Assembly (NCBI GenBank): GCA_017881265.1 | Contig: JADGRA010000015.1 | Span: 1-64,000, forward strand | Source: Myxococcaceae bacterium | GTDB lineage: Bacteria; Myxococcota; Myxococcia; Myxococcales; Myxococcaceae | Length of the DNA: 64,000 nt | Direction of reading: 5' to 3' | Part shown: positions 30,496 through 40,789 of the stretch, one piece after another | Numbering within the stretch: the first letter of the stretch is position 1 | Layout: every line of letters begins with the position of its first letter | Made by a program: the position numbers and the translations under genes | The notes under the pieces: generated by a model | Database searches by the model: none | Seen by the model: only the letters and a program-made list of their open reading frames with translations | Told to the model about the DNA's origin: nothing

Positions 30496-31296
30496 CTAGG
30501 GCGGCCCAAACCCGAAGCGCGCGAAGGCGGCCTGCGCCGGCGGGGAGAGGAGGAATCGCAGGTAGGCCGCCGCCAGCGCAGGCTGCGCCGAGCGCAGCAC
30601 CGCCGCCATGGGGTACTGGGCGACGACGTTGATGTCAGCAGGGATGGGCACCAGCTGCACCTGGCCAAGGACGCTCTGGGCGTCGCTCTGGTACACAATC
30701 CCCGCGTCGGCCTCGCCCAGGACGACCTTGGTCAGCACTTGCTTCACGTTGAGTTCCCGGGACACCACCCGGGCCTGGACGCGGGCGCTGAAGTCCGCGC
30801 CCAGCACCTGGTTGGCCCGCTCCAGCAGTTCCAGCGTGTAGCGCCCGATGGGCACCTCCGGCGTGCCGATGACGAGCCGCTGCGCGGTGGGCAAGTCGGC
30901 GAAGCGCTGCAAGTGGCCCGGGTTGGTGCGGGGGACGACCAGGACCGGCACGTTGCTCAGGAACAGCTGCTCCCGCCCCACCACCGAGGCCTTCTGTGCC
31001 AATTCCATCTGGCGGCGGTCCGCGGACAGAAAGACGTCGGCTGGTGCCCCCTGCTCGAGTTGCGTCCGCAGCTCCTGGCTTCCGGCGAAGTTGAAGCGGA
31101 GGTGCACCCCCGGGTGGGCCTCTTCGAAGGGGGCCTGGAGCGCGGTGCAGGCCTCGCGGAGCGAGGCTGCGGCAAACACGACCAGCTCCGTCGGGGCCGC
31201 CGGGCTGGTGGCCTCGGCCGCTGGGCCGTTCAGGCTGACCCCCAGCAGCAACAGCGGCAACAGGCGACGTCCAGAAAGTCTTCGGGTGGTGTGCAC
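30496..31296 (-). CDS. modA: Molybdate ABC transporter substrate-binding protein
   Basis: ELVVFAAASLREACTAL...FNFAGSQELRTQLEQGAPADVFLSAD...GEADAGIVYQSDA. Confidence 0.92.
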   Translation of the reverse strand: MHTTRRLSGRRLLPLLLLGVSLNGPAAEATSPAAPTELVVFAAASLREACTALQAPFEEAHPGVHLRFNFAGSQELRTQLEQGAPADVFLSADRRQMELAQKASVVGREQLFLSNVPVLVVPRTNPGHLQRFADLPTAQRLVIGTPEVPIGRYTLELLERANQVLGADFSARVQARVVSRELNVKQVLTKVVLGEADAGIVYQSDAQSVLGQVQLVPIPADINVVAQYPMAAVLRSAQPALAAAYLRFLLSPPAQAAFARFGFGPP

Positions 31297-31657: not shown

Positions 31658-32035
31658 GTGAGCGCGCAGGACGACGCGAGCGGCGTCGAGTGGATTGTGG
31701 AAGCCTTTGGCTGCCAGCCAGAGGCGCTGCGCTCCGAAGTGTCCTTGCGCTCCCTGTTCGAGCGGGCCGTTCGAGAACTTTCCCTGCGCCCACTTGCCCC
31801 GGCCAGCTTCCATCTCTTCCCACCGCCCGGCGGCATCACCGGCGTGCTCGTGCTTTCGGAGTCGCACCTCACCTGCCACACCTTCCCGGAGAGGGGGTAT
31901 GCCGCACTGAACCTGTACTGCTGTCGCCTGCGCCAGCGCTGGGACTTCGCCGCCCACTGCCGCGAGTTCCTCGGTGCCGAACGGACCGTGGTGATGGAAG
32001 TGCGGCGCGGTGGGCTGCCGAGGGACGCCGGGTGA
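31658..32035 (+). CDS. speD: S-adenosylmethionine decarboxylase proenzyme (SpeD/SpeH type)
   Basis: SASFHLFPPPGGITGVLVLSESHLTCHTFPERGYAALNLYCC; Ser, His (+5) and Cys (+20) spacing matches the pyruvoyl AdoMetDC active site. Confidence 0.88.
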   Translation: MSAQDDASGVEWIVEAFGCQPEALRSEVSLRSLFERAVRELSLRPLAPASFHLFPPPGGITGVLVLSESHLTCHTFPERGYAALNLYCCRLRQRWDFAAHCREFLGAERTVVMEVRRGGLPRDAG

Positions 32036-33927
32036 CCACCGGCGTCGCCTCCGCCTGCCCCCAGTGTGGCGCTCCGCTGCGCTTCGGCGGAGCCGCCAGC
32101 CTGGCCGCCGTCTGTGCCTACTGCCGCTTCGCCTCGCTGAGGACGGGCGCCAGGCTGGACGCTGCCGGGAAAGTGCCGGACCTGGTCGCCACCGACACGC
32201 GACTGTCCACTGGCACGGCGGGAAAGGTGGACGCTCGCACCTTCACCTTGCTTGGCCGGCTCCAGCTGTCCCAGGGCGAGGCCGTGTGGAACGAGTGGTA
32301 CGCCTGCTTCGACGACGGCAGCTGGGGCTGGGTGGCGGAGGCGCAGGGGCGTCTCTACGTCACCTTTCCCAAGGCAGCGCCCTCGGGGCTCCCGCCGCGG
32401 GGCGCGCTCAAGCCGGGGATGGAAGTCCGCCTGCCCGGGGTGGGGCGCGCGGTCGTGGACGAGGTGAACGAAGCGCGGCTGGTCTCGTTCGAGGGGGAGC
32501 TGCCCGTCCGGCCCGACCTCGGCGAGACGTGGCGCTACGCCGACTGCAGCACCGACAGCGGCGGCTTTGTCACGCTGGACTACGGCTCCGGCGGCGATGG
32601 CGTCCTCTACGCCGGGCGCGAGCTGACTTACGCCGAGGCCGGGCTGGCCGACTGTGCCCCGGTGGCTGCCCCCGCCCAAGTCGCGGCGCGGGGGCTGCGC
32701 TGCCCCAATTGCGGCGGGCCCATTGAGTTGCGTCGGCCCGACACCAAGGCCTTCGCCTGCCCAAGCTGCGGCGGCCTTCTCGACGTGAGCCGAGGACAAT
32801 TTCAAGTCCTGGGAATTCTCGACGCCCGCTCCAAGCCGCCCATCCCGCTCGGGACGCAAGGGACGCTGCTGGGCGAGACGCTGGAAGTCCTCGGCTTTCT
32901 CGTGCGCAGCATCACCGTGGACGGCGAGCGGTTTGCCTGGAAGGAGCTGCTCCTGCACGGACCGGGCGGCTACCGCTGGCTCTCCGTCTACAACGGCCAC
33001 TGGCTGTACCTGCGCCCCATTCCCGCGGGCAAGGTGGTGTCCGGCCTGACTGGCCGCCTGGCCACCTACGCGGGTCGCGGCTTCAAGCACTTCCAGGGGG
33101 GCCCGGCGCGGTACGACGAAATCCAGGGGGAATTTTACTGGGAGATTCGGGGCGGCGAGACGGTCCTGACGAATGACTACGTGGCGCCACCCGGGCTGCT
33201 CTCGTCCGAGAGCACCCAGACGGAGAGCTCCTGGAGCCTGGGCCAGTCGGTGACGGGCGCGGACGTCTGGAAAGCCTTCAAGCTTCCCGGCGCCCCTCCG
33301 CCCGCGGTGGGCGTCGGCGAGGCCGAGCCGAACCCCTTCCGGGCCCGCCTGGCCCCGGCGTGGAAGCTGGCCGGCGCAGCCCTGACCACCCTGTTTCTGC
33401 TGGCGGCCCTCTTCGCTGCACGCGCGCCGCGGCAAGAACTGATGGCGCTGGACGTCCCGCTTGCACCCGGGGACGTCACCCTGTCCGAGCCGTTCGACGT
33501 CGGCGGTGGACCGCAGGCCCTCGAAATCACCGCCGAGGCCGCGGTGGAGCAGGCCTGGGTGGGGCTGGACGTGGCCCTCATCGAGGAGGAGACGGGCGAG
33601 AGCGAGCTGGTGGGCTTCGAGCTGTCCTCCTTCTCCGGCGTGGAGGCCGGCGAGCGGTGGGCGGAGGGTTCGCGGCACGGGAGCGCCACGGTCGGCTCGG
33701 TCCACAGCGGACGCTACGTGCTGCGCGTCGAGCCGCAAGTCGAGCGCGGTCAAGGCCAGGTGCCTGCAACCGCCCACGTGCGTGTGGTGCGGGGCGTCTT
33801 TCTGGCGACGCCCCTGGTGCTGGCCCTCGTCTTGGTGGCAGCGTGGCCGCTGCTCGTCGTCCTGCGATTCGTGGCCTTCGAGCGGCGGCGCTGGCAAGAC
33901 AGCGACCACCCCTGGAGCAACGCGTGA
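32032..33927 (+). CDS. DUF4178 domain membrane protein with two zinc ribbons
   Basis: CPQCGAPLRFGG...CAYC; CPNCGGPIELRRPDTKAFACPSCGGLLDVS; EWYACFDDGSWGWVAEAQGRLYVTF; WKELLLHGPGGYRWLSVYNGHWLYL; two C-terminal TM segments. Confidence 0.8.
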   Translation: MTTGVASACPQCGAPLRFGGAASLAAVCAYCRFASLRTGARLDAAGKVPDLVATDTRLSTGTAGKVDARTFTLLGRLQLSQGEAVWNEWYACFDDGSWGWVAEAQGRLYVTFPKAAPSGLPPRGALKPGMEVRLPGVGRAVVDEVNEARLVSFEGELPVRPDLGETWRYADCSTDSGGFVTLDYGSGGDGVLYAGRELTYAEAGLADCAPVAAPAQVAARGLRCPNCGGPIELRRPDTKAFACPSCGGLLDVSRGQFQVLGILDARSKPPIPLGTQGTLLGETLEVLGFLVRSITVDGERFAWKELLLHGPGGYRWLSVYNGHWLYLRPIPAGKVVSGLTGRLATYAGRGFKHFQGGPARYDEIQGEFYWEIRGGETVLTNDYVAPPGLLSSESTQTESSWSLGQSVTGADVWKAFKLPGAPPPAVGVGEAEPNPFRARLAPAWKLAGAALTTLFLLAALFAARAPRQELMALDVPLAPGDVTLSEPFDVGGGPQALEITAEAAVEQAWVGLDVALIEEETGESELVGFELSSFSGVEAGERWAEGSRHGSATVGSVHSGRYVLRVEPQVERGQGQVPATAHVRVVRGVFLATPLVLALVLVAAWPLLVVLRFVAFERRRWQDSDHPWSNA

Positions 33928-33952
33928 GTGGCCGCGCCGGAAGGGACAGCGG

Positions 33953-34141
33953 ATGAGGACGGGGCCCTATGCCGTATTTTGCGCCGTCGTCTCCATCGCC
34001 TTTCTGGCGATGGAGGCCCGCGGCGTGAACCTGCTTCCCGAGTCGCGCCACATCAGTGTTCCGTCGTCGGTGCGCGGCGCGCCGGGTGGCTACCGAACGT
34101 ACCGCAGCTGGGGAGGCGGCGGATTCAGGGGAGGCAAGTGA
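33953..34141 (+). CDS. Small secreted/membrane Gly-rich protein (62 aa)
   Basis: MRTGPYAVFCAVVSIAFLAMEARGVNLLPESRHISVPSSVRGAPGGYRTYRSWGGGGFRGGK; stop overlaps the next start (TGATGG). Confidence 0.65.
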   Translation: MRTGPYAVFCAVVSIAFLAMEARGVNLLPESRHISVPSSVRGAPGGYRTYRSWGGGGFRGGK

Positions 34142-34353
34142 TGGACCTGTTCAACGTCAAGTCGCTGCTGGCGAGCATCATCTACTCGGCGCTCGGGGTG
34201 GTCATCTTCCTCATCGCCTTCAAGCTGCTCGAGCGCTTCATGCCTTTCAACGTCGACAAGGAGCTGGCCGAGGACCAAAACACGGCGGTGGGAATCGTCG
34301 TGGGCTCGGTGATGATTGGCCTCGCCATCATCATCGCCGCCGCCATTCACTAG
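34141..34353 (+). CDS. DUF350 (YjfL-like) membrane protein
   Basis: MDLFNVKSLLASIIYSALGVVIFLIAFKLLERFMPFNVDKELAEDQNTAVGIVVGSVMIGLAIIIAAAIH. Confidence 0.88.
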   Translation: MDLFNVKSLLASIIYSALGVVIFLIAFKLLERFMPFNVDKELAEDQNTAVGIVVGSVMIGLAIIIAAAIH

Positions 34354-34354
34354 G

Positions 34355-35902
34355 ATGGCCCGTGGCCCACGCGAGGCGGCCGGCGCCCGCGCAGCGACGG
34401 CGCGGACGACCGCCCTGTTCGTGGCGGTGCTGCTCGTCTCGACGTGCGGCCTCGTCTATGAATTGGGCGCCGGGGCGCTCGCCTCGTACGTGCTCGGCGA
34501 CTCGGTGACCCAGTTCTCCCTGGTCATTGGCATCTACCTCTCCGCCATGGGCCTCGGCGCCCACTTCTCCCGCTATCTCGAGCGGGGGCTGGCGAGGCGC
34601 TTCGTCGACCTGGAACTGGCCGTGGCGCTGGTGGGCGGCTTCTCGGTGCCGGTGCTCTTCCTCTGCTTCGGACGGGTCGCCCACTTTCGACCCATCCTCT
34701 ACGCCGTGGTGGCCCTGGTGGGCACGCTGGTGGGGGTGGAGATTCCGCTGTTTCTGCGCATCCTGCGGCGGCGCCTCGACTTCAAGGACCTCGTCGCCAA
34801 CGTGCTCTCGGTGGACTACCTGGGCGCGCTGCTCGCCTCGCTCCTCTTCCCGTTGCTGCTGGTGCCGCGCCTCGGCCTGGTGCGCACGTCTTTGGCGATG
34901 GGACTGGTGAATGGCCTGGTGGGCCTGTGGAGCACCTGGCTGCTCGCCGAGGAACTGCCGGCGCTTGGGTGGCTGCGGGTGCGGTGTGCGGGCGTCATCC
35001 TGGCCTGCGCGGCCGGCCTCGCGGGCGCCAACTGGATGACGTCGCTGGCCGAGGAGGCGCTTTTCTCGGACCCCATCATCTACTCGCGCCAGTCGGCCTA
35101 CCAGCGCATCGTCATCACCGCCGGGCGCGGCAGCTTTCAGCTCTTCCTCGACGGGAACCTCCAGTTCTCGTCGGTCGACGAGTACCGCTACCACGAGGGG
35201 CTGGTGCACCCGGCCTTCGCCGCCGCCGCCCGGCACGAGAACGTGCTGGTGCTGGGGGGCGGCGACGGCCTCGCCGTCCGGGAGATTCTGCGCTACCCGG
35301 ACGTGCACCGGGTGACGCTGGTGGACATCGACCCGGCAATGACGGCGCTGGCGGTGGACCTGCCCATGGTGCGGGAGCTCAACCGCAGTTCCCTCCTCGA
35401 CCGCCGGGTGCGGCTGGTGCACGAGGATGCGTTGGCCTGGCTCGCTGACCTCCCCCCGGAGGCACGCTTCGACGTGGCCATTGTGGACTTTCCCGACCCG
35501 AACAACTTCTCGCTGGGGAAGCTGTACACCACCCGCTTCTACCGTCTCCTCCGGGCCCACCTCGCCCCCGGGGGGGCGACCGCCGTGCAGAGCACCTCTC
35601 CTTTGCTGGCACGCACCTCCTTCTGGTGCATCGCCACCACCATGGAGGCCGCGGGCCTCTTCGTCCGCCCCCTGCACGTGGCCGTCCCTTCCTTCGGAGA
35701 ATGGGGCTTCGCGCTGGCTGAAGCCCAGCCCTTCGAGATTCCCGGCCACGTGCCGCCCGGGCTGCGCTTTCTCTCCGACGCGCTTTTGCCCGGCCTCTTC
35801 GTGTTCGGCCCAGACCTGGCCCGTGTCCCCGCCGAGGTGAACCGCTTGGATAATCAAATCCTGGTCCAGTACTACGAGGCCGAGTGGAGGCGCTTCGAAT
35901 GA
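34355..35902 (+). CDS. Membrane-embedded spermidine synthase-like protein (polyamine aminopropyltransferase)
   Basis: N-terminal multi-TM; IIYSRQSAYQRIVIT...LFLDGNLQFSSVDEYRYHEGLVHPA...VLVLGGGDGLAVREIL...VDIDPAM...DFPDPNNFSLGKLYTTRFY. Confidence 0.88.
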   Translation: MARGPREAAGARAATARTTALFVAVLLVSTCGLVYELGAGALASYVLGDSVTQFSLVIGIYLSAMGLGAHFSRYLERGLARRFVDLELAVALVGGFSVPVLFLCFGRVAHFRPILYAVVALVGTLVGVEIPLFLRILRRRLDFKDLVANVLSVDYLGALLASLLFPLLLVPRLGLVRTSLAMGLVNGLVGLWSTWLLAEELPALGWLRVRCAGVILACAAGLAGANWMTSLAEEALFSDPIIYSRQSAYQRIVITAGRGSFQLFLDGNLQFSSVDEYRYHEGLVHPAFAAAARHENVLVLGGGDGLAVREILRYPDVHRVTLVDIDPAMTALAVDLPMVRELNRSSLLDRRVRLVHEDALAWLADLPPEARFDVAIVDFPDPNNFSLGKLYTTRFYRLLRAHLAPGGATAVQSTSPLLARTSFWCIATTMEAAGLFVRPLHVAVPSFGEWGFALAEAQPFEIPGHVPPGLRFLSDALLPGLFVFGPDLARVPAEVNRLDNQILVQYYEAEWRRFE

Positions 35903-37518
35903 CGCGCTTCACTCGGCGCGACCTCCTCCTCGCGTTTCTGGGCCCAGCGGTGGCGACCGCCTGTCACGGCGGAAAGCCGCCCGCGCTGGCCTTCGAAGGC
36001 GCCATCCTCGGCGCCAACGACAGTCGCGGCCACCTGCTGCGGGCGGGTTTCAAGCCCACGCCCCAGGTGCAGACGCGGACGGCCGTCCTCATCATCGGCG
36101 GCGGCATCGCCGGCCTGTCTGCCGCCTGGCGCTTGTCGCGTGCCGGGGTGGAGGACTACCGCATCCTCGAGCTGGACGCGGAGCCCGGCGGCACGTCCCG
36201 GGCCGGCAGCAACGCCGTTACCCCCTTCCCCTGGGGCGCGCACTACCTGCCGTGTCCCCAGCCGCACGCCCGCTCCGTCGAGCTGCTGGCGTTGGAGATG
36301 GGCGCGGCCGAGCGGCGCAGCGACGGGCAGCTCGTCTTCGACGAGGCGCAGCTCTGCCGTGCGCCGCAGGAACGGCTGTTCATCGCCGACCGCTGGTACG
36401 AAGGGCTCTACCCGCGCGCCGGCGCCACGCTGCGCGACCTCGACGAATTCGCACGCTTTCAGGCCGAAGTCCGGCGCTTCTCGGCCCTGCGCGATGGCCA
36501 GGGCCGGCGCGCCTTCGCCGTTCCCATGGAGCACGGTTCGGACGACGCCGACATCGTCGCCCTCGACCGTCTCTCCATGTCCGATTGGCTCGAAGCCCAG
36601 GGCCTGCGCGGCGAACGCATCCGGTGGTTCGTCGAGTACGGCTGCCGCGACGACTATGGAACGACGCTTCAGGGCACGAGTGCCTGGGCGGGACTGCACT
36701 ACCACGCCTCACGCACCGACCACGGCGGCCCGGAGGACCTGCTCACCTGGCCCGAGGGGAACGGGCACATCGTCTCGCACCTGGCGCGCCGGGCCGGCCG
36801 GCGTCTGGAAACGGGGGTGGTGGTCACGGAGGTTCGGCCCCTGGAGCGAGGCGCCGAAGTGGTGGCCTTCCATGCCGACACGGGCCGCTGCGAGCGGGTG
36901 CTTACCGACCACGTGGTGCTGGCCATCCCGCGCGTGGCAGCAGCCCGCGTCTTTCCCCACCCCCGGCTGGTCGCCGAGGCCAGCGGCTTTCACGCCGGCG
37001 CCTGGCTGGTGGCCAACGCCACCCTGCGCCGGCGCCCTCTCTCCCGCGGCTTCCCGGAGGCCTGGGACAACGTCCTCTACGGTTCCGGCAGCCTGGGCTA
37101 CGTGGTGGCCACCCACCAGTCCGACCGCCACGGCGGTCCACCCGGCGCCACCGTCTTCACCTGGTACCTGTCGCTGACGCACGCCGACCCCGCGGAGGCG
37201 CACCGCTGGCTGTACGCCCTGTCCTGGCGCGACGCGGCCGAGTTGGTGGTGGCCGACCTGCGGCGGGCCCACCCGGACATCGAGTCCTGCATCGAGCGGC
37301 TCGACGTGTGGCGCTGGGGACACGCCATGATTCGCCCTCGCCCCGGCTTCGTCTTCTCCCCGGAGCGGCGTCGGGCCTCCCAGGCCCTGGGAGATGTCCA
37401 CTTCGCCCACACCGACCTCTCCGCGCTGTCGCTGATGGAGGAGGCGCAGTACCACGGCATCCGCGCCGGGGAGGAAATCCTGGCGCGGCTGGGCCGGCAA
37501 GTCGACAGCCTGCTGTGA
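35899..37518 (+). CDS. FAD-dependent oxidoreductase (amine oxidase family), Tat/lipobox N-terminus
   Basis: TRRDLLLAFLGPAVATAC; AVLIIGGGIAGLSAAWRLSRAGVEDYRILELDAEPGGTSRAG; ATGA overlap with the upstream gene. Confidence 0.82.
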   Translation: MTRFTRRDLLLAFLGPAVATACHGGKPPALAFEGAILGANDSRGHLLRAGFKPTPQVQTRTAVLIIGGGIAGLSAAWRLSRAGVEDYRILELDAEPGGTSRAGSNAVTPFPWGAHYLPCPQPHARSVELLALEMGAAERRSDGQLVFDEAQLCRAPQERLFIADRWYEGLYPRAGATLRDLDEFARFQAEVRRFSALRDGQGRRAFAVPMEHGSDDADIVALDRLSMSDWLEAQGLRGERIRWFVEYGCRDDYGTTLQGTSAWAGLHYHASRTDHGGPEDLLTWPEGNGHIVSHLARRAGRRLETGVVVTEVRPLERGAEVVAFHADTGRCERVLTDHVVLAIPRVAAARVFPHPRLVAEASGFHAGAWLVANATLRRRPLSRGFPEAWDNVLYGSGSLGYVVATHQSDRHGGPPGATVFTWYLSLTHADPAEAHRWLYALSWRDAAELVVADLRRAHPDIESCIERLDVWRWGHAMIRPRPGFVFSPERRRASQALGDVHFAHTDLSALSLMEEAQYHGIRAGEEILARLGRQVDSLL

Positions 37519-37533: not shown

Positions 37534-38247
37534 CTATCCGTTGGTCCAGAAGGCGCGGGCAAAGGCCGAAGCCGGTGCGACGCGCAGCGCATCCACCTGC
37601 CCGCGCTCCGTCACACGGCCGCCCTCCAGCACCAGCATCTGTCCCCCCAGAGCGCGCGCGTCCTCCGCCTCGTGGGTGACGACGAGCGCGGGGACGGCCA
37701 GACGCCGCAGGTGCTCGGCCAGAAAGCCGCGGAAGCGGACCCGGCTGGGGGTGTCCAGCGCCGCCAGCGGCTCGTCCAAAAGCAGGGCATGCGGCTCCAT
37801 GGCCAGCGCCCGGGCCAGGGCGACGCGCTGTCGCTCGCCGCCGGAGAGGCCGCTTGGTAGCCGGTCTGCCAGCGCAGAAGCGCCCAGCTGGCTTAAGGCC
37901 GCCTCCACACGGGCCGCGCGAGCCGCCCGGTCCAGCCGGTGCAGGGCGAAACCGACATTGTCCCGCACCGAGAGGTGGGGGAAGAGGCCGGAGTCCTGTG
38001 GCACGTAGGCCACGCGGCGCTCCTCCACCGGCAGACACAGGCCCGAGGCTGCGTCGAAGAGGATGGCCCGGCCGAGCACCAGCCGCCCCGCGCTTGGACG
38101 CAGGGCCCCCAGCACCGCCAGCAGCAGCGTCGTCTTCCCGGCGCCGTTGGGCCCGGTGACGAGCAGCGGCCCGGGGCCCGCGGCAAACGCCACCGACAGG
38201 TGAAAGGTGCCCCGCCGGAGCTCAAGTCGCGCGTCGAGCACCCTCAC
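37534..38247 (-). CDS. modC: Molybdate ABC transporter ATP-binding protein
   Basis: [42 protein letters not shown]; adjacent modB. GTG start inferred. Confidence 0.85.
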
Positions 38248-39040
38248 CTCCGAGGAAGCCGTGCGCCCGCCGGCCCACCAGCAGGAGCAGGCCGAAGGCC
38301 ACCACCACCAGCACCAGCGCCATGGCCTTGGCGGCGCGGACGTCCGTCTCCAGGGCGGTGTAGATGGCCAGCGGCAGGGTCTGGGTGCGCCCGGTGAGGT
38401 TGCCGGCAAACATCAACGTGGCTCCAAACTCCCCCAGGGCCCGCGACCAGCTGAGCGCGGCGCCGGTGGCAAGCCCGGGCAGGGACAGGGGCAGGGCCAC
38501 GCGGAAAAAGGTGCGCGCCGGCCCGGCACCCAGCGAGCGGGCCACGAGCAGCAGTGCCGGGTCGAGTCGCCGGAAGGCGGCCGCGGCCGCCTGGACATAA
38601 AAGGGCGCAGACACGAAGACCTCGGCCAGCACCACCGCCGCGGTGGTGAAGGGCAGGCCGATGCCGACGCGCTCGAGCCACGGCCCCAGCAGCCCGCGGC
38701 GTCCGAAGGCCAGCAGCAGCGCCAGCCCCGAGACGGCCGGGGGGATGACGATGGGCAGCTGCACCAGCGTGTCCACGGCCCGCGGCAGGCGCCCTGTGCG
38801 ACGTGCCAGAAGCCAGGCCAGCGGCGTGCCGAGGAGCAACACCAGCGCGAGCGAGCAGCTGGTGGTGAGGAGGCTCAGGCCGAGCGCCGCCACGGCCAGG
38901 GGGTGGCGTAGGCCGGCCAGCGCCTCCCCGACGCCGGTGGACAGGACGAGGGCCACAAGCGGCGCCAGCAGGAAGGCGAGCAGAACGCCGGCCGCCAGCA
39001 CCGGCAGGACCACCTGCACGCGGCGGCTCCAGCCTCTCAT
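38222..39040 (-). CDS. modB: Molybdate ABC transporter permease
   Basis: [25 protein letters not shown]...[15 protein letters not shown]...[31 protein letters not shown]. Confidence 0.92.
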
Positions 39041-39292
39041 GGCACCTCAGCCAACCCGCCGCACCGGCCGGTGCCCGGCCTGCGTCCGGCACGCCTGGAC
39101 GCGGTGTCTGAAGGAGTCGGGGTCCACGTGGGGGGCCCCCGGGACTGTCAGGAAAGCCAGGCGGTGTGTCAAGCTTGCCAGCGGAGTTTGCCGTCCCGGA
39201 GGGAAACCTTTCCGGCTGCTCGGGGGTCTGTCTTCTGCAACTGCCTCCCCTTGGGCATGTCGCTTTGCCGTGCGCGGGGCGGGCAATTCGCT

Positions 39293-40789
39293 ATGTCGTT
39301 GGTACGTATGTCCCTCGTGCGGCCAGCCCTAACCTGTCTGGGCGCAGCGCTTCTGGTGGCCCTGCCGGCCTGCCGGGAAAGCCCTGCGCGGGCCGCCTCC
39401 GCGGAGCCGGCCGGCGAGGCGCGTGCGGCCCCCACCCCGCCCCCGGGCCCTCCGGTGCCGGTGGAGGTGCCGTCCCTCGCCCCGCTGGTCGAGCGCCTTC
39501 TGGCCACGGTGGTCAGCGTCGAGGTGGACCCCGGCCAAGCGCCGCTGTCCGCCGACGAGGAGGACGAAGGGGACCCGGAGACCGCCACGCCTCCCCTTCC
39601 GGAGGGACACCCACCGGTGCCGCACGGGGGCGGCCCGCGCGAGCGCGCCGGCGCGGGCGTCCTCCTTGGCGGGCGCGGCCTGGTCCTCACCAGCTTCCAC
39701 TTCCTCAGGGACGCCTCCGGCCTCCTGGTGCACCTGGCCGACGGCCGCGCCTACGAGGCCGAACTGGTGGGCCGCGACGCCCCCACGGACCTCGCCCTGT
39801 TGCGGCTGCGCAATGCGCCGAAAAGCCTCCCGGTGGCCCGGCTCGGCGACTCGCGGCGGCTGCGCGCCGGGGACTGGGTGCTGGCGGTGGGGAACCCCTT
39901 TGGCCTGTCCTCCAGCGTCTCGCTGGGCATCATCAGCGCGCTCGCCCGCCATCTCGGCGGCCCCTACGACGACTTTCTGCAGACAGACGCGGCCATTAAC
40001 CCGGGCAACTCCGGCGGCCCCCTCTTCGACTTGCGCGGCGAGGTGGTGGGCATCGCCACCGCCGTGCCGGTGGCGGCTGGCATCGGCTTCGCCGTGCCGT
40101 CCTCCGTTGTGCTGGAGCTGCTGCCCCAGCTGGAGCGGGAGGGCGGCGTGACGCGGGGCGCCCTGGGCGCCTTCTTCCAGGACATGACGCCGGCGCTCGG
40201 TCGGGCGCTGGGGGTGGAGTCCGGCCAGGGGGCGCTGTTAGGTAGCTTCACCGAAGACTCGGCCGCGCGCCGGGCCGGCCTGCAGCGGGATGACGTCGTG
40301 GTGGCCCTCGACGGCCAGCCGGTGGCCTCCCAGCGGGAGCTCATCCACCGCGTGGCGCTGCACTCGCCCGCCTCCCAGGTGAAGCTGACATTCGTCCGGA
40401 GCGGCAAGCCCCAGGACGTCCAGGTGACGCTGGGCGTGCGGACGGACCTCGACGGCACCGGCCCCCTCCCCCGCCCGCTGGCCGACGAGCGGCCGGCGCC
40501 GGATGAATCCGGCCTCGGACTGCAGCTCGCCGACCTCACCCGGGACGTGGCGGCGCGTCTGCAAATCCACAGCCCGGGCGCCGTGGTGGTGAGCGTCGCG
40601 CTGGGTGGGGCCGCGGATGCCGCAGGCTTCCTTCCGGGCGCCGTCATCATCGAAGTCGCCGGCGCGCCGGTGCGCAGTGCGCGCGACGCGGCCTTGGCGC
40701 TCAAGTCAGCCCATCCCGGCCGCACCGTCCTGGTGCGCACGCTGGCCCCTGGGGGCGCCCCCGCGCTGCGGGCCCTCGTCGTGCCCTAG
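39293..40789 (+). CDS. HtrA/DegP-like trypsin-family serine protease with PDZ domains
   Basis: Lipobox LLVALPAC; GAGVLLGGRGLVLTSFHFLRD (His), PTDLALL (Asp), AAINPGNSGGPLFD (Ser), two PDZ-like segments. Confidence 0.88.
   Translation: MSLVRMSLVRPALTCLGAALLVALPACRESPARAASAEPAGEARAAPTPPPGPPVPVEVPSLAPLVERLLATVVSVEVDPGQAPLSADEEDEGDPETATPPLPEGHPPVPHGGGPRERAGAGVLLGGRGLVLTSFHFLRDASGLLVHLADGRAYEAELVGRDAPTDLALLRLRNAPKSLPVARLGDSRRLRAGDWVLAVGNPFGLSSSVSLGIISALARHLGGPYDDFLQTDAAINPGNSGGPLFDLRGEVVGIATAVPVAAGIGFAVPSSVVLELLPQLEREGGVTRGALGAFFQDMTPALGRALGVESGQGALLGSFTEDSAARRAGLQRDDVVVALDGQPVASQRELIHRVALHSPASQVKLTFVRSGKPQDVQVTLGVRTDLDGTGPLPRPLADERPAPDESGLGLQLADLTRDVAARLQIHSPGAVVVSVALGGAADAAGFLPGAVIIEVAGAPVRSARDAALALKSAHPGRTVLVRTLAPGGAPALRALVVP

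Follow-up and report, generated by a model that had tools for sequence, protein, structure and literature searches.

A C-terminal lysine as candidate aminopropyl acceptor in a six-gene membrane polyamine operon of a Myxococcaceae bacterium

The window analysed here is a stretch of 64,000 nucleotides from a Myxococcaceae bacterium (assembly GCA_017881265.1, contig JADGRA010000015.1, positions 1 to 64,000), in which six tightly packed genes, all on the + strand, form an operon at positions 31658-37518. They encode the S-adenosylmethionine (AdoMet) decarboxylase SpeD, a DUF4178 protein, a small Gly-rich peptide, a DUF350 protein, a synthase combining seven transmembrane (TM) helices with a spermidine-synthase-fold (SpdSyn) domain, and a flavin adenine dinucleotide (FAD) oxidoreductase. 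With moderate confidence, and arguing from sequence, we propose that the operon aminopropylates the epsilon-amine of the C-terminal lysine of the Gly-rich peptide. This peptide of 62 amino acids (aa) is the best candidate for the aminopropyl acceptor because its terminal lysine is invariant. An earlier note on the same DNA had described the six packed genes, which reading frames and family profiles bear out, as a membrane-associated system in which decarboxylated AdoMet is made and used, together with an exported oxidoreductase, and our results support that description. As products it had considered a polyamine or an aminopropylated lipid or peptide, overlooking the small peptide as acceptor candidate; the peptide option now gains the invariant lysine, while a lipid acceptor was rejected, with no support from neighbourhood or folds.

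The peptide gene (33953-34141, +, ATG start) encodes a protein with one TM helix and the C-end ..SWGGGGFRGGK-stop, for which Pfam and NCBIfam profile searches returned no family match. The codon of the terminal lysine, the residue proposed to be modified, is the last sense codon (34136-34138, +), followed by the stop at 34139-34141. Loci for comparison came from a SpdSyn-based scan (80 loci in Myxococcota, Acidobacteriota and Planctomycetota), a DUF4178 search (30 further loci in relatives) and regional fetches that added planctomycete and other genomes; many are cut by contig ends. Profiles of the window genes matched 75 of these loci for SpeD, 95 for DUF4178, 91 for the small peptide, 83 for DUF350, 94 for the synthase and 65 for the FAD protein. 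Among complete members of the peptide family, all 73 non-identical C-ends close with lysine, 70 in the form GGK; for the other five operon proteins at the same loci the figure is 11 of 439.

Since lysine ends had first been noticed by looking for K-ended open reading frames (ORFs) near DUF350, with possible selection bias, the gaps between DUF4178 and DUF350 genes were tested again, blind to the last residue. A K-ended sense ORF is present in each of the 89 distinct gaps, which span five phyla; it is the longest sense ORF in 81, and in the remaining 8 another sense ORF ends in lysine. Antisense ORFs in the same gaps are K-ended in 2 of 50 cases. A wider collection of 139 tails (96 clusters at 90% identity and 37 at 40%, overlapping fetches of one region included) has lysine and never arginine at position -1 throughout, glycine at -2 in 135 and an aromatic residue at -5 in most, but this list was chosen for K ends and the unbiased figures are therefore the 73/73 and 89/89 counts. 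That lysine is never replaced by arginine suggests a role in amine chemistry rather than in charge.

The terminal lysine is also kept in proteins that share no detectable similarity with the window peptide apart from the tail. These include a 48-aa peptide of Novosphingobium (..GPSHK), a 510-aa lipoprotein of Alteromonas (..SSGK), the tails of Ensifer (..PESGK), Tritonibacter (..SNRVK) and Burkholderia (..GSHK), and Ser/Arg/Gly-rich planctomycete ORFs of 239-511 aa ending in ..GGFGK, ..SRGGK or ..FGGGK.

DUF350 operons with a different enzyme provide the contrast. In E. coli, the DUF350 gene yjfL shares an operon with the lipoprotein gene yjfM and with yjfC, with ygiBC as a paralogous pair. 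RefSeq annotates both YjfC and YgiC as peptide--spermidine ligase, a function credited to Pederick et al. 2023 in PMC12568646 and PMC10948618. YjfM ends in ..GHWGG and YgiB in ..RSMGG; of the tails encoded next to a YjfC/YgiC homologue in ten further systems, all on plasmids, 8 end in GG and 2 in CG or GS. Overall, ligase-partnered tails have a GG end in 10 of 12 and a K end in 0 of 12. The tail thus changes with its partner enzyme, GG accompanying the ligase and GGK accompanying SpeD and the aminopropyltransferase. For a ligase, the carboxyl group of a C-terminal glycine can serve as the attachment point of spermidine, whereas an aminopropyltransferase requires an amine, and the lysine side chain is an amine on a four-carbon arm, like putrescine. 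Gly-Gly-N6-aminopropyl-lysine and Gly-Gly-spermidine would be close chemical mimics.

The likeness to the E. coli yjfIJKLMC and ygiBC systems comprises DUF350 (in yjf), a Gly/Ser/Arg-rich lipoprotein with a conserved C-terminus and a polyamine-attaching enzyme. The E. coli systems, however, use an ATP-grasp ligase and a GG tail, with an amide expected at the C-terminal carboxyl, whereas the present operon has SpeD, SpdSyn and a GGK tail, with alkylation of lysine proposed. Profile searches with PF03738 and DUF1190 gave no match among the six operon genes, and we liken the two systems by working principle, not by membership. PF03738 matches also occur in planctomycetes. On an Arthrobacter plasmid (L208:4092-4766, +), the ORF preceding a GspS-like ligase overlaps a gene annotated as tRNA-dihydrouridine synthase; its C-end, ..GGGGHGG, suggests that a spermidine-ligase tail protein has probably been misannotated here. 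A Rhizobium plasmid (L200:2251-3306) carries an ion-channel gene within a DUF350/spermidine-ligase operon, and a polyamine-tailed peptide acting on that channel would be a speculative link.

The speD gene (31658-32035, +, GTG start) matches AdoMet_dc PF02675 at 6e-26 and TIGR03330 above its cut-off, and its product (SESHLTCHTFPE...YCC) aligns with the T. maritima AdoMet decarboxylase 1tlu through the active-site stretch SESHLT.HT.PE...C. Family profile and self-cleaving Ser/His/Cys stretch are those of a class 1b AdoMet decarboxylase. The synthase gene (34355-35902, +) most likely starts at ATG 34355, giving 515 aa, rather than at TTG 34316, and matches Spermine_synth PF01564 at 2e-28 and NF002956 above its cut-off. 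The AlphaFold2 (AF2) model of the 515-aa protein (predicted local distance difference test, pLDDT, 90.8) shows seven TM helices; for the C-terminal domain, the best Foldseek match is 1uir, the T. thermophilus aminopropyltransferase (E 2.8e-16). It combines the features of the aminopropyltransferase superfamily, namely a Rossmann-like fold, GGGDG, an acidic residue after beta2 and a DxxDP loop. Across homologues, GGGDG is found in 106 of 108 and a DFPDP-type motif in nearly all, and VD[LI]DP (DxDP), both aspartates of DFPDP and DEYRYHE are, like GGGDG, nearly invariant. Because these catalytic motifs are so well kept, the synthase is probably active as an enzyme.

The loops on the N-terminal side of the synthase are richer in Lys+Arg than its other loops in 108 of 108 homologues (mean 8.8 vs 2.0). 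This positive-inside bias, combined with seven TM helices, would place the catalytic domain outside the cytoplasmic membrane, and, given lysine as the acceptor, we think this modelled orientation quite likely. Lipoprotein-type tails, such as that of locus L157 (..LQSC), fit an outward catalytic domain, as does the FAD protein with its twin-arginine translocation (Tat) signal. Inside the TM domain, the charged residues E36, E129, R135 and D154 are conserved and are candidates for donor handling.

Mechanistically, SpeD would make decarboxylated AdoMet in the cytosol, as suggested by homology and its conserved active site, and the donor would reach the 7-TM enzyme, probably oriented N-in/C-out, whose TM domain may carry it across. 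The spermidine-synthase-fold domain would then move the 3-aminopropyl group onto the epsilon-amine of the lysine in ..GGK-COOH, yielding N6-(3-aminopropyl)lysine, with the lysine side chain substituting for putrescine or cadaverine. The product, Gly-Gly-(carboxylated triamine), would mimic the Gly-Gly-spermidine amide that YjfC/YgiC may form on GG lipoproteins, and two unrelated enzymes would thus arrive at one kind of cationic tail. DUF350 and DUF4178 could be membrane partners that bind or read the tail, and the FAD lipoprotein, which Tat would deliver to the same side of the membrane, might conceivably trim or mature it. We infer both the acceptor chemistry and the topology. In its full form, the scheme has a transporter-fused aminopropyltransferase forming N6-(3-aminopropyl)lysine extracytoplasmically, as the very last residue of a membrane or lipoprotein tail, in chemical convergence with the tails predicted for YjfC/YgiC and with DUF350 common to both; so stated, we regard it as evenly poised between right and wrong.

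If true, this would be a new protein modification, and it would answer the substrate question for the orphan, widespread membrane-fused spermidine synthases. It would also explain why an AdoMet decarboxylase accompanies synthases whose product may not be spermidine, suggest why two enzyme types share a DUF350 context (GG with the ligase, GGK with the aminopropyltransferase), and give a handle on DUF350, DUF4178 and envelope stress systems linked to the phage shock protein (PSP) response. A neighbour-encoded protein with an invariant C-terminal lysine reduces the acceptor question to one mass-spectrometry experiment.

Several points weigh against lysine modification on the outer face. The positive-inside rule and the count of seven TM helices are predictions, and an outward catalytic domain implies that decarboxylated AdoMet must cross the membrane, by way of a hypothetical transporter. 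The ligase contrast set is small (n=12), and in the parts of the literature covered we found no in vivo substrate reported for YjfC/YgiC. A free polyamine as acceptor fits too, since the acceptor-site signature (DEYRYHE, DFPDP) is kept and NF002956 identifies the protein as a polyamine aminopropyltransferase, and the genome contains genes for PF02784-fold decarboxylases, one of which may be LysA. The product of the membrane synthase might accordingly be a small polyamine in free form, such as spermidine or aminopropylcadaverine, with the tail, DUF350 and DUF4178 sensing or transporting it and the tail left unmodified. The spermidine synthase motifs, catalytic and acceptor-site alike, would agree with this, as would the status of NF002956 as an NCBIfam equivalog for polyamine aminopropyltransferases, the decarboxylase-fold genes, and the fact that the only PF02675 (SpeD) match and the only PF01564 (Spermine_synth) match found in the genome assembly both lie inside the operon. 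We nevertheless consider it unlikely, as it leaves unexplained both an invariant C-terminal lysine in unrelated proteins and the switch between GG and GGK with the partner enzyme.

The invariant lysine could instead be a docking signal, as C-terminal residues often are, recognised by DUF350, DUF4178, or a protease or chaperone, while the aminopropyl acceptor is something else, such as a lipid or a different protein. The trio DUF4178-tail-DUF350, the most tightly linked part of the operon and kept even where no synthase is adjacent, speaks for such a role; the complete lack of Lys-to-Arg replacement, which suggests amine chemistry over charge, and the way K-tails follow the aminopropyltransferase, none accompanying the ATP-grasp ligase, make recognition alone rather improbable. 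A further sub-variant, whose share overlaps that of our proposal, keeps the tail modification and places the synthase domain in the cytosol (N-out), so that modification of the lysine precedes export of the tail. Decarboxylated AdoMet is a cytosolic product, and the analogue YjfC, as an ATP-grasp enzyme, requires ATP and should therefore act in the cytosol. Against this, 108 of 108 homologues have the positive-inside pattern that, with seven TM helices, points to N-in, and we hold a cytosolic synthase domain to be doubtful.

The operon belongs to a class described between 2019 and 2024, in which an AdoMet decarboxylase, a membrane-fused SpdSyn, DUF350 and DUF4178 occur together. Li et al. 2019 reportedly described clusters of AdoMet decarboxylase, membrane SpdSyn (a fusion with MFS) and DUF350 and proposed an acceptor other than putrescine, leaving its identity unknown; their abstract reportedly states that the fusions fail to complement a spermidine synthase mutant and that spermidine is absent, which would speak against a free polyamine as product. 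In contrast to those clusters, a tail-peptide acceptor and an outward domain are proposed here. Ravi et al. 2024 (PMC11237479), who cite Li et al. 2019 (BCJ20190561), describe operons with a 7TM-fused spermine/spermidine synthase, DUF350, DUF4178 and a novel lipoprotein, some of which add an AdoMet decarboxylase and a polyamine oxidase and some of which lack the CesT/Tir-PspA dyad, and suggest that polyamine levels or the aminopropylation of other substrates are monitored. The earlier note had guessed that a general polyamine link was probably not new, and indeed its general idea was already known from that paper (PMC11237479).

With the CesT/Tir-PspA-7TM-SpdSyn-DUF350-lipoprotein (Ctha_1186)-DUF4178 operons shown there (PMC11237479), the present operon shares the 7TM-SpdSyn, DUF350, DUF4178, AdoMet decarboxylase, oxidase and a small or lipoprotein partner; the co-occurrence of 7TM-SpdSyn, DUF350 and DUF4178 that marks this group of envelope operons is present. 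It differs in having no PspA or CesT gene, hence no CesT/Tir-PspA dyad within 31658-37518, and in its tail, a one-TM peptide. The covered parts of the paper (PMC11237479) speak in general terms of other substrates being aminopropylated and do not name a C-terminal lysine. As far as the literature covered goes, and allowing for an earlier statement elsewhere, the C-terminal lysine acceptor is what is new here. Deoxyhypusine/hypusine on eIF5A offers a parallel, in that a lysine epsilon-amine receives an aminoalkyl group originating in polyamine metabolism; deoxyhypusine synthase, however, transfers an aminobutyl group from spermidine to an internal lysine, and enzyme and donor are unrelated.

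The gene order speD-DUF4178-peptide-DUF350-synthase-FAD is almost always kept across dozens of genomes, far in excess of chance, and the co-conservation on which the earlier note had made its reading depend is thus observed in the surveyed genomes. M. xanthus has the operon as well (L097). Operons of DUF4247, DUF350 and SpdSyn occur in actinobacteria, for example around Rv2598-Rv2601; searches of plasmids for such operons yielded none. Some genomes have a lone synthase; as counter-examples these loci were rejected, since in 7 of 7 such genomes checked a DUF4178-tail cassette with a GGK tail lies elsewhere. The synthases that stand alone form a myxobacterial subclade (L036, L039, L041, L060, L062, L066, L091, L098 and L107), and in the checked genomes their separation from the DUF4178-tail-DUF350 cassette amounts to a natural operon split. 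At the position held by PspA elsewhere, Novosphingobium (L113:3586-4581) has an SPFH/band-7-SHOCT protein and Alteromonas (L118:9506-10612) a toxic anion resistance protein, both in operons with K-ended tails. The present genome has one PspA, on another contig.

The FAD gene (35899-37518, +, ATG start) matches Amino_oxidase PF01593 at 1.7e-14, and its product, with the twin-arginine motif TRRDLL and a lipobox-like cysteine (ATAC), is a candidate Tat-exported lipoprotein. Among homologues, 70 of 73 carry a twin-arginine signal and 57 of 73 both this signal and a lipobox. Of the amine-oxidase-like lipoprotein named in the earlier note, the lipoprotein half stands; amine oxidase activity is unproven, PF01593 being a broad superfamily and the nearest NCBIfam models not being amine oxidases. 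A search for PDB relatives at 1e-6 returned none, and removal or maturation of the aminopropyl group by this protein is a guess. Its absence from several proteobacterial and planctomycete loci marks it as accessory.

The DUF4178 gene (32032-33927, +, GTG start) matches PF13785 at 1e-26, with two copies and CxxC zinc ribbons. Its AF2 model (pLDDT 87.5) shows the zinc ribbons, two DUF4178 beta domains, a TM helix at 437-464, a beta-sandwich and a TM helix at 592-621; a fold search against the PDB gave generic beta-sandwich/jelly-roll matches only. The DUF350 gene (34141-34353, +, ATG start) encodes a two-TM membrane protein that matches PF03994 at 1.4e-14 and covers about half of the profile.

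By their reading frames, the genes overlap at 3 of the 5 junctions: by 4 nt between speD and DUF4178, by 1 nt (TGATG) between peptide and DUF350, and by 4 nt (ATGA) between synthase and FAD genes. A promoter and terminator scan found nothing exceeding shuffles, with a sigma-70 consensus unsuited to this GC-rich genome. The assembly comprises 4.4 Mb in 81 contigs, and the relatives found are mostly myxobacterial. A ModA-like solute-binding protein (30496-31296, -) flanks the operon on one side and an ABC ATPase with a permease (modC/modB-like, 37534-39040, -) on the other, so that the six + genes look as if inserted into a molybdate-type modBCA cluster whose flanking genes are all on the - strand. 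Just downstream, at 39071-40789 (+), lies a gene for an HtrA/DegP-like protease with Trypsin_2 and PDZ domains, which shows no sign of belonging to the operon.

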